The translations under genes and the position numbers were made by a program. DNA of 34,077 nt, from positions 1 to 34,077 of the forward strand of contig JNET01033771.1 in assembly GCA_000697455.1 (NCBI GenBank), in the 5' to 3' direction. Position 1 is the stretch's first letter; the number at the start of each line of letters is the position of its first letter. The notes under the pieces were generated by a model. The model made no database searches, was not told where the DNA came from, and was given only the letters and a program-made list of their open reading frames with translations. Origin of the DNA: Basidiobolus heterosporus B8920. Its lineage: Eukaryota; Basidiobolomycota; Basidiobolomycetes; Basidiobolales; Basidiobolaceae. This document shows positions 13,665-33,761 of this stretch, one piece after another.

Positions 13665-14204
13665 CTAGTTGCCAGTGGTGGTGGATAGTGTACCATGATG
13701 ATAAAGTTCCCGATCCCATAGATAGAGCCCTAATCCATCACCGCCTACTCGCTTCAGTTGTGTCACCAGATCGGAGATCTTCTTGATGGCTTCCACCTGT
13801 TCAGTCAAATAGTGCGTTTCAATGAAATCACAAAGTTGTGGATCCCCATTCTCCGCCGAGATATTATGAAGATTCAGAAGCGATTTATTGACATCTTTTT
13901 CCAGCTGAAGGGCCGCTTCAACTGCATTCTGTGCGGATTGCCATTCACATGATGGGTTTGGGATCTGTTGGAGGTTAACCCTACCACCACGTTGGTTTTG
14001 GTAGTCAATTAATTTTTGTGCATGCTCACGCTCCTCTTCGGCGCTCTCTCGGAAGAACTTGGCTAGTCCAGGAAGAGCCACGTTGTCACGGTCAAAGTAG
14101 GCAGCCATCGAAGTGTATGTGTACATGGCGGTGAACTCCATGTTGATCTGGTTATTGATACCTTCCTCGGAGGCTATGGCAAAGTTCTGTTTGGCAAGAG
14201 ACAT
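13665..14204 (-). CDS. Ferritin, H-type (catalytic) subunit
   Basis: Uninterrupted 179-codon gene whose length and sequence match animal and early-fungal heavy-chain ferritins. The ferroxidase centre is complete: E23 and Y30 (human E27, Y34), E58 and H61 in EEEREH (E62, H65), E102 in LEKDVN (E107) and Q136 in TEQVEAI (Q141). The acidic residues lining the three-fold iron-entry channel are present (D126 and E129 in CDFIETHYL). The C-terminal GLGLYLWDRELY helix E region is present. The product should form a 24-subunit cage, oxidise Fe(II) and store iron. No signal or transit peptide is seen, so it is likely cytosolic. It is transcribed away from a second ferritin gene (14785-15535) across 580 bp and, unlike it, has no introns. 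Confidence 0.97.
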   Translation of the reverse strand: MSLAKQNFAIASEEGINNQINMEFTAMYTYTSMAAYFDRDNVALPGLAKFFRESAEEEREHAQKLIDYQNQRGGRVNLQQIPNPSCEWQSAQNAVEAALQLEKDVNKSLLNLHNISAENGDPQLCDFIETHYLTEQVEAIKKISDLVTQLKRVGGDGLGLYLWDRELYHHGTLSTTTGN

Positions 14205-14784
14205 GTTGTTTCACAGAGGAATAGATGGCTCAGTGTTTGAAGGGACGGACATTCAGAGAATGGCTTTATATGTGAATCAAGATTCGTAGATTCTTGCTGC
14301 CATCAGATCTCCTGCAACGTTCAACTGATAGATTGTGAACCGTCTATTTGAGTGGCTTGGCCAGGGAGAACTGAATCACTCCCAATCACCAAGACACCGC
14401 AACAATCAAGCTGCCTAATCATCGATATGGAAATAGACGGCTGACCCTTAGCCAATGATCGATAGTCCACCGAAATCACCATTTAGACTTCGATTTGCTC
14501 CACGCAGCACATTTACGGATGAGGGGCCCCACAGTTTTTTCCTCTTGCCTCGGTCTCATAAAGCACCATCACTGATCACCCCTCACCCCTCACCCATCAC
14601 TCATACCCTCAACCGCGTGTCTTCTGGATATTGAAATCAATGACCTATAAGGCAATATTATTTGATCAGAATGCCAAGGACTAGACTGTGGATGGGATTC
14701 CGTCACCCTAAAACGACTGCTTAAAAGGCTTGACTCACCCTTCATCCCTCACCTCTCTCACCACGAATTATATCACTGGAGATC
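14205..14784. promoter_or_regulatory. Shared divergent promoter of the two ferritin genes
   Basis: A 580-bp region separates the two ferritin start codons. On the minus strand CATATAAAG (14264-14272) is a TATA-like box about 60 bp from the H-type ferritin start. Several GATA cores occur (TGATAG, CGATAG, CGATAT between about 14325 and 14465), which is notable because fungal iron regulators of the SRE family bind GATA motifs, but GATA is common by chance. GGGGCCCC near 14524 is an 8-bp palindrome, and a CACCCCTCACCC pyrimidine tract follows at about 14575-14600. The bidirectional role is an inference from arrangement. Confidence 0.45.
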
Positions 14785-15535
14785 ATGTCACTTGCAAAAC
14801 AAAACTTCCCCACTGCCTCCGAAGACCTACTTAATCAACAGATCACGATAAAGTACAATTCCCATTACGTTCATTTATCTGCTTCAGCGTATTTTGGAAG
14901 GGATAACGTTGCTTTACCGGTTAGCTTGAACCAAGTCTTTTATGCACTGTTTCCCCTCCCCCTCCCCTATTAACTTCTCACTTTCGAATAGGGTTTACAA
15001 AAGTATTTCAAGAAAATTTCTGACAAGGTAATCTTTGGGAAAGGAAACCTTTTGTGTTCACTTGACTTAAACCGTTGGTTAGGAATATGAGGATGTTTGG
15101 AAATTAATTCAATATCAGAACCAACGGGGTGGCGTCGTCCAGCTAGTATCCATCGCCTCACCAAAGGCTGAGTGGGAGTCCGCGTATAGTGTATTTGGTA
15201 AGCTGACTTGTGTACCATTGTTAAACCAAGAATGAGCTAATCCAGTCAAAAGAGGCATCCCTCTCTTTGAAAAAGGAGGTAAACGAGGCACTGATCGCCA
15301 CTTCACTTCATGGCCGTCAGGTAGACCCAGCACTAAGTAACTTTATCAAGTAAGCACACGAATCGCCATTCTTTGGGAAACCTTCCTAATAGTTACATCT
15401 TGTAGATCGAATTTCTTATCGGATGAGGTGGAGTTGATATCGGAATTGGCGCATTATAGCACTCAATTACAACGCGTTGGTAAAGATAAACTAGGGCTCT
15501 ATCTGTTCGACCAAGAATTGTATCAGAGAAATTAG
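14785..15535 (+). CDS. Divergent ferritin paralogue with degenerate ferroxidase centre
   Basis: Five exons: 14785-14919, 14992-15027, 15083-15190, 15246-15349, 15406-15535, giving 170 residues that align nearly without gaps to the neighbouring H-type ferritin (both begin MSLAKQNF). Ferroxidase positions are altered: E to K23, Y to H30, H to D61, E to K102, Q to E135; only E58 remains. Three-fold channel acids are also replaced (N125, K128). The helix E end (GLYLFDQELY) is kept. The third intron donor is GTATTT at 15191, chosen because it gives a gap-free alignment; the nearby GTAAGC (15198) would shift the frame. With every exon open and splice sites intact, the gene looks maintained. It may act as a non-catalytic subunit co-assembling with the H-type chain, like animal L chains, or have a new role. 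No pseudogene lesions are seen. Confidence 0.85.
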
Positions 15536-23459: not shown

Positions 23460-24740
23460 ATGAAGGTCACCGCATTGAAAGCACTATTGATGGTCTCTCT
23501 CTTAACCGTCGTCGGAACTATTAGCATTCCTAATCCAAAGTTATGTCGTGAATACTGCCAGGGAATTGTTTCTGGATTGAAGACTTATGGGATTGCTACC
23601 GAAGTAAGGTTTTGCGACAACATTGATGTGACAAAATTCCCTACCGGTGTAACCCAGCCAGACAAACAGAACTGCCAAGGGTTGGTTAAGAGTGCAAACG
23701 AATTAGGGCTGAAATGTGACGAAAGTGATTGTTCTAAAGCCCCTGCACATGGAAGTCGAACAAAAGGGAACAAGGATGGCTATGGAGCTGGAATAGGTGA
23801 TAGAGATGGTGGTCACTACGATACCGGTATTGGCGGTGGTAACGGAGGTTACAACACAGGCATTGGTGGTGGTAATAAAGGGCATGGAGGAAAGGGTCAC
23901 GGTGGCATTGGCGGTGGTGACAGAGGACACGGAGGAAAGGGTGGTAAGGGCCATGGCGACAACGGCGGCTACGACAATGGTGGCATTGGCGGTGGTGACA
24001 GAGGACACGGAGGAAAGGGCGGTAAGGGCCACGGCGACAACGGCGGCTACGACAATGGTGGCATTGGCGGTGGTGACAGAGGACACGGAGGTAAGGGTGG
24101 CAAGGGCCACGGAGACAATGGCGGCAGAGGACACGGTGGCTATGACAATGGAGTGGGCGGTGGAGGAAAGGGTAGCAAACACGGAGGAAATGGTGGCTAT
24201 CATTCTGGTATTGGTGGAGGCGATAAGGAGCACGGAGGAAAAGGTGGTAAAGGTGGCAACAACGGCTATGACTCTGGTGTAGGCGGCGGCAAAGGCAACG
24301 ATGGCAAGGGTGGCAAAGGCGGTCAAGGTGGTGACGACGGCTATGACTCTGGTGTAGGCGGCGGAAAAGGCAACGAAGGAAAGGGTGGTAAAGGAGGCAA
24401 AGGTGGTAATGATGGCTATGATTCAGGTGTAGGCGGCGGCAAAGGCAACGATGGCAAGGGTGGTAAAGGCGGTAAAGGTGGTGACGACGGCTATGACTCT
24501 GGTGTAGGCGGCGGAAAAGGCAACGATGGAAAGGGTGGTAAAGGAGGCAAAGGTGGCAATGATGGCTATGACTCTGGTGTAGGCGGCGGAAAAGGCAACG
24601 ATGGCAAGGGTGGTAAAGGCGGCAAAGGTGGCAATGATGGCTATGACTCTGGTGTAGGCGGCGGAAAAGGCAACGATGGAAAGGGTGGTAGTGGTAAAAG
24701 TCAGGGCGTGAATGTTGGAGCCAATATCCGTGTTTACTAA
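23460..24740 (+). CDS. Secreted glycine-rich repeat protein with a six-cysteine N-terminal domain
   Basis: Single exon, 426 residues. The N-terminus (MKVTALKALLMVSLLTVVGTISI) is a clear signal peptide. Residues about 25-100 form a small domain with six cysteines (LCREYC, RFCDN, QNCQG, LKCDESDC), enough for three disulfides. The rest is Gly-rich: first 26-residue repeats containing GGIGGGDRGHGGKGGKGH, then 25-residue repeats of the GYDSGVGGGKGNDGKGGKGG type. The protein ends with GANIRVY. No family is recognised. Gly-rich repeats with Tyr, Lys and His are typical of structural extracellular proteins (wall, adhesive or coat), and this is the inferred role. The repeats are periodic at the DNA level, so length differences between strains are likely. 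Confidence 0.85.
   Translation: MKVTALKALLMVSLLTVVGTISIPNPKLCREYCQGIVSGLKTYGIATEVRFCDNIDVTKFPTGVTQPDKQNCQGLVKSANELGLKCDESDCSKAPAHGSRTKGNKDGYGAGIGDRDGGHYDTGIGGGNGGYNTGIGGGNKGHGGKGHGGIGGGDRGHGGKGGKGHGDNGGYDNGGIGGGDRGHGGKGGKGHGDNGGYDNGGIGGGDRGHGGKGGKGHGDNGGRGHGGYDNGVGGGGKGSKHGGNGGYHSGIGGGDKEHGGKGGKGGNNGYDSGVGGGKGNDGKGGKGGQGGDDGYDSGVGGGKGNEGKGGKGGKGGNDGYDSGVGGGKGNDGKGGKGGKGGDDGYDSGVGGGKGNDGKGGKGGKGGNDGYDSGVGGGKGNDGKGGKGGKGGNDGYDSGVGGGKGNDGKGGSGKSQGVNVGANIRVY
23904..24137 (+). repeat. 78-bp coding tandem repeat, three copies
   Basis: The phrase GGCATTGGCGGTGGTGAC begins at 23904, 23982 and 24060, an exact 78-bp (26-codon) step within the glycine-rich gene. The third copy diverges at its end. Confidence 0.9.
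24264..24690 (+). repeat. 75-bp coding tandem repeat, about six copies
   Basis: GGCTATGA followed by TC(T/A)GGTGTAGGCGGCGG recurs with a 75-bp (25-codon) step at 24264, 24339, 24414, 24489, 24564 and 24639. The last copy is partial. Copies differ at synonymous sites and in D/N/E/Q at fixed positions. Confidence 0.92.
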
Positions 24741-32767: not shown

Positions 32768-33063
32768 TGAGTTGTAGTATTCTCAAACGGAAGGGAGATA
32801 TGCGCAGATGTGATTCTCGAATCAGCTTTATTAGCAATACACTAAGATTCTTTTGGCTCGGTAAAAGTTCTTTTTGGATGCATAGCAATTACCAACTTCG
32901 GATAGCACCTAACACGCACTTACCAATTAAATTGATCAATGTCCTTAAATGCCTAAGCTATTGATGTACAATATTCTGTTTCACTCAGTAGAAACCACCC
33001 ATTTTGTACTCCTCACAATTAGTCATCTGGTGGGAATTCCTTCGGTATGTTCGTTTATGAATA

Positions 33064-33633
33064 TTACAGTGTTGAGATAAACGAGAATAAAATTTTGAAT
33101 ACATAAATATAATTATCATCTTACAGTGTTGAGATAAACGAGAATAAAATTTTGAATACATAAATATAATTATCATCTTACAGTGTTGAGATAAACGAGA
33201 ATAAAATTTTGAATACATAAATATAATTATCATCTTACAGTGTTGAGATAAACGAGAATAAAATTTTGAATACATAAATATAATTATCATCTTACAGTGT
33301 TGAGATAAACGAGAATAAAATTTTGAATACATAAATATAATTATCATCTTACAGTGTTGAGATAAACGAGAATAAAATTTTGAATACATAAATATAATTA
33401 TCATCTTACAGTGTTGAGATAAACGAGAATAAAATTTTGAATACATAAATATAATTATCATCTTACAGTGTTGAGATAAACGAGAATAAAATTTTGAATA
33501 CATAAATATAATTATCATCTTACAGTGTTGAGATAAACGAGAATAAAATTTTGAATACATAAATATAATTATCATCTTACAGTGTTGAGATAAACGAGAA
33601 TAAAATTTTGAATACATAAATATAATTATCATC
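33064..33633 (+). repeat. Minisatellite, 10 perfect copies of a 57-bp unit
   Basis: Units start at 33064 and every 57 bp to 33577 (TTACAGTGTTGAGATAAACG...). The copies appear identical by eye. It sits between the SURF4 stop (33762) and the AONS start (32767), upstream of AONS. Because 57 is a multiple of three, one minus-strand frame remains open through the array (19-residue unit beginning MIIIFMYSK), but this is explained by periodicity. Confidence 0.97.
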
Positions 33634-33761
33634 TGAAAATAGTGCCCATATTCTATCTAGACATCAAGCTTGGATTGGGGAATGATATGTGTTAACGAAG
33701 CGTAAATTCTATATATGTTCAAATTCGTTCACGGTATGGTTGTTTCTATGGTTAAGTTCGC

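Follow-up and report, generated by a model that had tools for sequence, protein, structure and literature searches.

The window, by which we mean the whole stretch of 34,077 nucleotides from Basidiobolus heterosporus B8920 that was analysed, harbors a divergent pair of ferritin genes, F1 and F2, whose start codons stand back to back across 580 bp. The head-to-head pair of which the original prediction spoke was borne out, with F1 at 13665-14204 on the minus strand and F2 at 14785-15535 on the plus strand. The features of the locus are the following, the codon positions within the F2 exons having been counted by hand:

13665..14204, minus strand: F1, an intronless class-1 ferritin gene of 179 amino acids, one uninterrupted open reading frame
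14205..14784, no strand: divergent intergenic region of 580 bp, its elements being consensus matches only
14265-14270, minus strand: TATAAA, 61 nt from the F1 ATG, a consensus match
14721-14726, plus strand: TTAAAA, 64 nt from the F2 ATG, a consensus match
14785..14919, plus strand: F2 exon 1, amino acids 1-45; codon of K23 at 14851-14853, of H30 at 14872-14874
14992..15027, plus strand: F2 exon 2, amino acids 46-57; codon of K57 (human E61) at 15025-15027
15083..15197, plus strand: F2 exon 3, amino acid 58 to base 1 of codon 96; codon of E58 (the sole kept ligand) at 15083-15085, of D61 at 15092-15094
15253..15349, plus strand: F2 exon 4, codon 96 to the second base of codon 128; codon of K102 at 15270-15272, of N125 (human D131) at 15339-15341
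15406..15535, plus strand: F2 exon 5, the rest of codon 128 to the stop, helix E region; K128 (human E134, three-fold pore) is split across the exon 4/5 junction, and the codon of E135 (human Q141) lies at 15425-15427

The five exons of F2 join to a single frame of 170 amino acids. The four introns (72, 55, 55 and 56 nt) are all GT..AG, and in alignments with the proteins of Basidiobolus ranarum and Basidiobolus meristosporus all four junctions were gapless at the junction. Both gene products belong to the ferritin family, Pfam Ferritin (PF00210) being matched by F1 with 138.5 bits and by F2 with 75.4 bits at a gathering cut-off of 24.5. F1 and F2 share the same residue at 83 of 170 positions (49%); their first eight residues are the same, a start common to both fungal ferritin classes described below. 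F1 is 94% identical to a protein of B. meristosporus and 78-81% identical to three proteins of B. ranarum, and the top two database matches of F2 were Basidiobolus proteins. A search of the source assembly (8.1 Mb, 428 contigs, possibly incomplete) with family, F1 and F2 queries, in which introns were ignored and only the best candidates scored, yielded no further ferritin copy besides the F1/F2 locus. B. ranarum has three F1-type ferritins (P0008, P0009, P0010), the source assembly one.

Elsewhere in the window, ten open reading frames between 5259 and 32767 were scanned. They include a long coiled-coil protein (Filament match), RhoGAP, ribosomal L5, a fasciclin protein, SIR2, RPC5 and an aminotransferase; three gave no match, and no other iron gene was among the ten. 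A Gly/Lys/His-rich repeat protein at 23460-24740, with 75- and 78-bp repeats and a start that is hydrophobic by eye, had no Pfam match at E 0.001. At 33064-33634 there are ten copies of a 57-bp tandem repeat with 100% match, through which a minus-strand open reading frame (32985-33632) reads as repeated 19-residue units; the perfect copies suggest a recent expansion or an assembly artefact.

The ferroxidase ligands of the human H chain, E27, Y34, E62, H65, E107 and Q141, are all present in F1 (E23, Y30, E58, H61, E102 and Q136), so that six of six ligands of the catalytic H type are kept and the centre is complete. In F2 the corresponding residues are K23, H30, E58, D61, K102 and E135. Here five ligands are replaced and only E62 is kept (one of six), and the alignment to the human H-chain positions exactly confirmed the five changes originally named (K23, H30, D61, K102, E135). 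In its residues, F2 has lost the ferroxidase centre, as L chains have. The two orthologues of F2 are replaced likewise, with K, H, E, D, K, E in B. meristosporus and K, H, E, Q, K, E in B. ranarum. Because both are replaced at the same five sites, and because 126 of 128 proteins without a basic residue at human position 134 have no replaced ligand (one of the 126 has a gap at Y34), the changes in F2 are not due to chance. Five replaced ligands are the most found in any of the 165 rows compared, the runner-up having four.

The second alteration of F2, absent from the original prediction, concerns the three-fold pore, for which we use the human numbering. The pore of F1 is acidic (D126, E129). 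In F2, E134K and H118S occur in all three orthologues, and D131 is N in the window, N in B. meristosporus and D in B. ranarum (D131N, E134K and H118S in the window). The third region of interest is the nucleation site of the L chain, which in the accessible part of PMC13411386 is assigned to positions 60, 61 and 64; the roles of the three-fold channel and of Glu61 in ferritin are described there too. F1 has Glu at human positions 57, 60, 61 and 64, F2 has K53, D56, K57 and E60 (K, D, K, E). The acidic patch of L chains at 60, 61 and 64 is thus E, E, E in F1 and is interrupted by lysine in F2 of the window and of B. meristosporus (D, K, E); B. ranarum F2 (K, D, E, E) is acidic throughout at these three positions (D, E, E). 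With its complete ferroxidase centre, its acidic pore and four Glu in the patch, F1 could, by its residues, admit, oxidise and nucleate iron alone.

The survey of related fungi that had been suggested for the pair showed F2 to be present in B. ranarum, with a full-length predicted protein of 171 amino acids (83% identity), and in B. meristosporus, with a partial protein of 147 amino acids (82% identity). The pairwise differences among the three species amount to 29 of 170, 26 of 146 and 40 of 147 aligned positions. Assessed at the protein level, the positions that vary among the F2 proteins sit at columns that are variable in the family (median entropy 1.96 vs 1.33 bits; Mann-Whitney p 1.7e-5 for 163 positions, 43 of them variable; 1.3e-5 in a repeat), and the same test with three F1-type proteins gave p 4.9e-5. 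Of the 42 columns that are more than 90% conserved in the family, 8 are changed in the F2 trio as a group: four ligand columns and A26S, A94V, L110I and G156K. Away from the metal site, the family-conserved residues R72, G73, G74, L132, G158 and D163 are present in every F2 protein that extends over them. For the B. ranarum orthologue, AlphaFold2 with an alignment of 60 database proteins predicted a fold of five helices including helix E (mean pLDDT 90.2, pTM 0.83); together with the Pfam match, this prediction for the orthologue places F2 among the maxi-ferritin subunits.

These comparisons bear on the question whether F2 is a working subunit or a gene that decays under relaxed selection. Decay would account for the missing catalytic residues, for the partial B. 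meristosporus record and for the faster divergence of F2, whose differences between the window and B. meristosporus are about three times those of F1 (82% vs 94% identity). It is hard to reconcile with the open frame and intact splice sites in the window, the full-length prediction in B. ranarum and the concentration of the differences at tolerant positions. Under neutrality about 3.6 nonsense changes would be expected among the F2 substitutions, and none was observed (P 0.027 in a simple model with transition weight 2). The test is soft, since a broken frame would be concealed in the two sequences that are gene predictions, and a length difference of one codon occurs among the three. We regard decay as very improbable. 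By these measures F2 shows signs of constraint, and it is not a private oddity of one genome.

Among the matches listed, zygomycetes have a second class of ferritins, here named class 2, the class names having been given after a first tree with 125 rows had been seen. It is found in Mortierellaceae, Umbelopsis, several Mucorales, Endogone, Jimgerdemannia, Bifiguratus, Calcarisporiella, Geosiphon and Ambispora. When the ferroxidase and pore columns were masked, a 67-row tree put class 2 and F2 on one side of a branch (support 99/97) and Basidiobolus F1 apart from F2, on the class-1 side. A basic residue, Lys or Arg, at human position 134 occurs in 31 of 31 class-2 and F2 rows vs 0 of 36 others, which requires one change on this tree, column 134 having been left out in building it; in all three Basidiobolus F2 proteins the residue is K. 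The 67 rows were picked after the residues had been seen and comprise 28 of the 33 class-2 rows outside Basidiobolus (absent are P0005, P0117, P0124, P0135 and P0153), the three F2 and 36 of 128 others. Of 31 named organisms with a class-2 protein, 16 also have a class-1 protein among the matches listed (14 of 29 others and the two Basidiobolus species), or 17 of 32 with the window included; since the counts come from the best 120 matches of each protein search, a missing class-1 protein means little.

The position of F2 varied between the trees. In the 125-row quick tree it was unresolved, on its own long branch outside class 2, and in a 48-row tree it again fell outside class 2, placement within the class being 2.3 log units worse (p 0.23). 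Its branch in the 67-row tree has a length of 1.09, and class 2 without F2 was not rejected there (AU test, p 0.279). Profile scores with pore and ligand columns masked, class 1 being represented by 33 rows drawn at random from 40 named fungal rows, favoured class 2 for all three F2 proteins, by +12.7, +34.7 and +4.1 bits (bootstrap 0.77, 0.98 and 0.58). Since the scores of true class-2 rows begin at +56.6 and those of class-1 rows reach no higher than -35.1, the F2 proteins stand between both classes. Taken together, the trees and profiles give about two chances in three that F2 belongs to this old second class of zygomycete ferritins.

The obvious alternative is that F2 arose by duplication of F1 in the Basidiobolus line and then lost its ferroxidase centre, which would make the two genes a fungal H/L pair with one shared promoter, convergent with that of vertebrates. 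Two neighbouring genes in divergent orientation whose products start with the same eight residues would fit such a duplication, although this start is common to both classes, and in B. meristosporus, too, the genes are probably linked (see below). A tree that joins F2 with Basidiobolus F1 was not rejected by the AU test (p 0.095 with 67 rows, 0.090 with 48 rows), but its log-likelihood was worse by 6.0 and 7.2, respectively, and the same origin has to contend with the grouping of Basidiobolus F1 with class 1 and not with F2, the class-2 pore residue of F2, the presence of introns in F2 and their absence from F1, the retention of the L-type acidic patch by F1 itself and the low identity of the two proteins. 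We consider it unlikely. A recent tandem duplication as the origin of F2 is disfavoured by these tree likelihoods. The split of one gene in the manner of the animal H and L chains, which the original prediction had in mind, has become less probable, given that F1 and F2 share only 49% identity and that F2 groups with class 2 on the favoured tree, even if the AU tests leave alternative placements unrejected.

Basidiobolus is not the only genus in which ligands of class-2 ferritins are replaced. The comparison covered F1, F2 and 163 database proteins (165 rows), with class 2 defined by the residue at 134 and P0136 set aside for a gap at this position. At least two ligands are replaced in 14 of the 33 class-2 rows from organisms other than Basidiobolus vs 0 of 128 others, animal and metagenome proteins included among the latter. 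Any ligand is replaced in 17 of the 33 vs 2 of the 128, and 16 of the 33 have none replaced. The two exceptions outside class 2, P0069 and P0110, a Benniella and a metagenome protein, differ at H65 alone (R, Q). The combination of Arg at both H65 and Q141 recurs in Geosiphon, Syncephalastrum, Apophysomyces, Zychaea, Fennellomyces and Phascolomyces. Ten second ferritins of Umbelopsis, Mucorales and Geosiphon (P0130-P0132, P0135, P0151-P0153, P0144, P0133 and P0090) have partly dismantled centres, all ten with Arg at Q141 and six with Arg at H65.

By parsimony the 67-row tree requires three changes for the loss of two or more ligands and six for the loss of any. On the tree the losses of two or more fall in three groups, one being Geosiphon, one Linnemannia zychae, and the third a joint group of Umbelopsis, Mucorales and Basidiobolus. 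Class 2 seems to have lost the ferroxidase site more than once. As a wider and more tentative reading, which we hold to be possible rather than probable, zygomycetes would have evolved a two-subunit ferritin of their own, independent of the animal H and L chains. The basic pore of class 2 would pair with the acidic pore of class 1, charge complementarity would drive the formation of mixed cages, and class 2, freed from catalysis, would have lost ligands at least three times on the tree, most fully in Basidiobolus.

In the original prediction a shared promoter in the intergenic region would allow fixed co-expression of both genes. This idea found no support: each gene has its own TATA-like element, the two being about 450 bp apart, and the B. 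ranarum F2 contig differs from those of the three F1-type genes, so that a shared promoter is unproven. The region contains one WGATAR and two CCAAT. Among iron-regulatory motifs ATCWGATAA is absent from it, and the single WGATAR was given no weight; the two halves share no words beyond 7 bases that would indicate a duplicated promoter.

Linkage of the genes in other fungi was read from the longest contig of each protein cluster only. For B. meristosporus the F1-type and the F2 protein are recorded with a contig of identical length, 166,294 bases, which makes linkage probable there. The B. ranarum contig that carries F2 measures 17 kb, those with the three F1-type genes 8.5, 34 and 46 kb; given these different lengths, the genes are apparently separate in that species, except if the end of a contig has divided the pair. 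Of the 14 other fungi for which both classes appear among the matches listed, only Mortierella alpina (3.4 Mb) has the same contig size for both, for which reason close linkage is apparently not general for the two classes; the records of two Umbelopsis in this comparison come from different assemblies and are uninformative. Divergent orientation may help joint expression, but it is not essential.

The separate contigs of B. ranarum would also fit an F2 that does not co-assemble with F1 and either forms a cage of its own or acts outside iron storage, for instance as a decoy, as a regulatory protein or in a cage that is free of iron or holds another metal. Pore and ferroxidase site are both altered in F2 and its branch is long, as such a function might require. 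On the other hand, a homotrimer of F2 would bring three Lys together at the pore, and the conserved residues R72, G73, G74, L132, G158 and D163 of the family are retained. An independent role of F2 appears rather improbable to us.

We favour, with a probability of about 0.6, the reading that F2 is a conserved, catalytically inert subunit, most likely of the old class 2, which would be co-expressed with F1 and co-assemble with it in mixed 24-subunit cages. In F2, K23 and K102 would lie among E58, D61 and E135 and might form salt bridges in place of the two iron ions, which would keep the four-helix core stable without metal. K128 would turn the three-fold pore of a pure F2 cage basic, by which F2-only cages and the entry of Fe2+ at this site would be disfavoured; in a mixed cage the same lysine could pair with D126 or E129 of F1 at the pore. 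We propose that F1 would be responsible for iron entry, oxidation and nucleation, and that F2, by diluting the catalytic sites and the acidic pores, would modulate how fast iron is taken up and released, or what the mineral is composed of. The most economical view of F2 is that it has a structural and a tuning role in such mixed cages.

A ferritin of Absidia is reportedly the topic of Carrano et al. 1996. In Lichtheimia corymbifera, which like the source assembly of the window has two ferritin genes, both genes were slightly down under iron limitation (PMC4133162) and both were down during phagocytosis (PMC8065604), as far as the accessible parts of these reports go; ferroxidase and pore residues are not covered in those parts. 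Some Mucorales have two or three ferritin genes, and in the portions available of the papers concerned no inert subunit is described (PMC4133162, PMC8065604, PMC5604411). The genome paper of 2014 states, in a passage on ferritins, that the dynamics and functions of fungal ferritins were wholly unknown (PMC4133162). In the literature searched by titles and the beginnings of abstracts, in which subscription papers are sparsely covered, no non-catalytic or basic-pore fungal ferritin was found. Catalytic and non-catalytic ferritin subunits are best known from animals. If our reading is correct, this division would have arisen a second time, in fungi, and living species would show the loss of the ferroxidase centre in several grades; it could then be asked in which order pore charge and catalysis changed and why cells keep an inert subunit, and a charge switch at the three-fold pore of mixed cages would be of relevance to the field of ferritin assembly.

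Two subunit types in one cage, as proposed here for F1 and F2 from their sequences, are reported for the secreted ferritin of insects in the accessible part of PMC11719527. The insect heteropolymer differs in being secreted, whereas the start of F2 is not hydrophobic by eye and shares its first eight residues with F1.

The comparison with the H and L chains of animals, drawn in the original prediction, holds in one respect, namely that a catalytic and a non-catalytic ferritin (the latter judged by its residues) stand side by side. The vertebrate L chain, like F2, has the ferritin fold without a working ferroxidase centre, occurs alongside a catalytic subunit and has charged residues in its metal site, which contains Lys62. 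It differs from F2 in that another set of residues is changed, whereas in F2 the changes are at E27, Y34, H65, E107 and Q141. The pore residue of F2 is basic, its patch is K53, D56, K57, E60 next to a partner F1 with four Glu, and on the favoured tree F2 is an old separate paralogue, not the sister of its partner. Because the nucleation patch is incomplete in the window copy, F2 does not belong to the L-chain family. The likeness also fails in F1, which itself carries Glu at 57, 60, 61 and 64; since the acidic nucleation residues of the L chain are found in the catalytic partner, F1 and F2 are no copy of the animal H/L division of labour.
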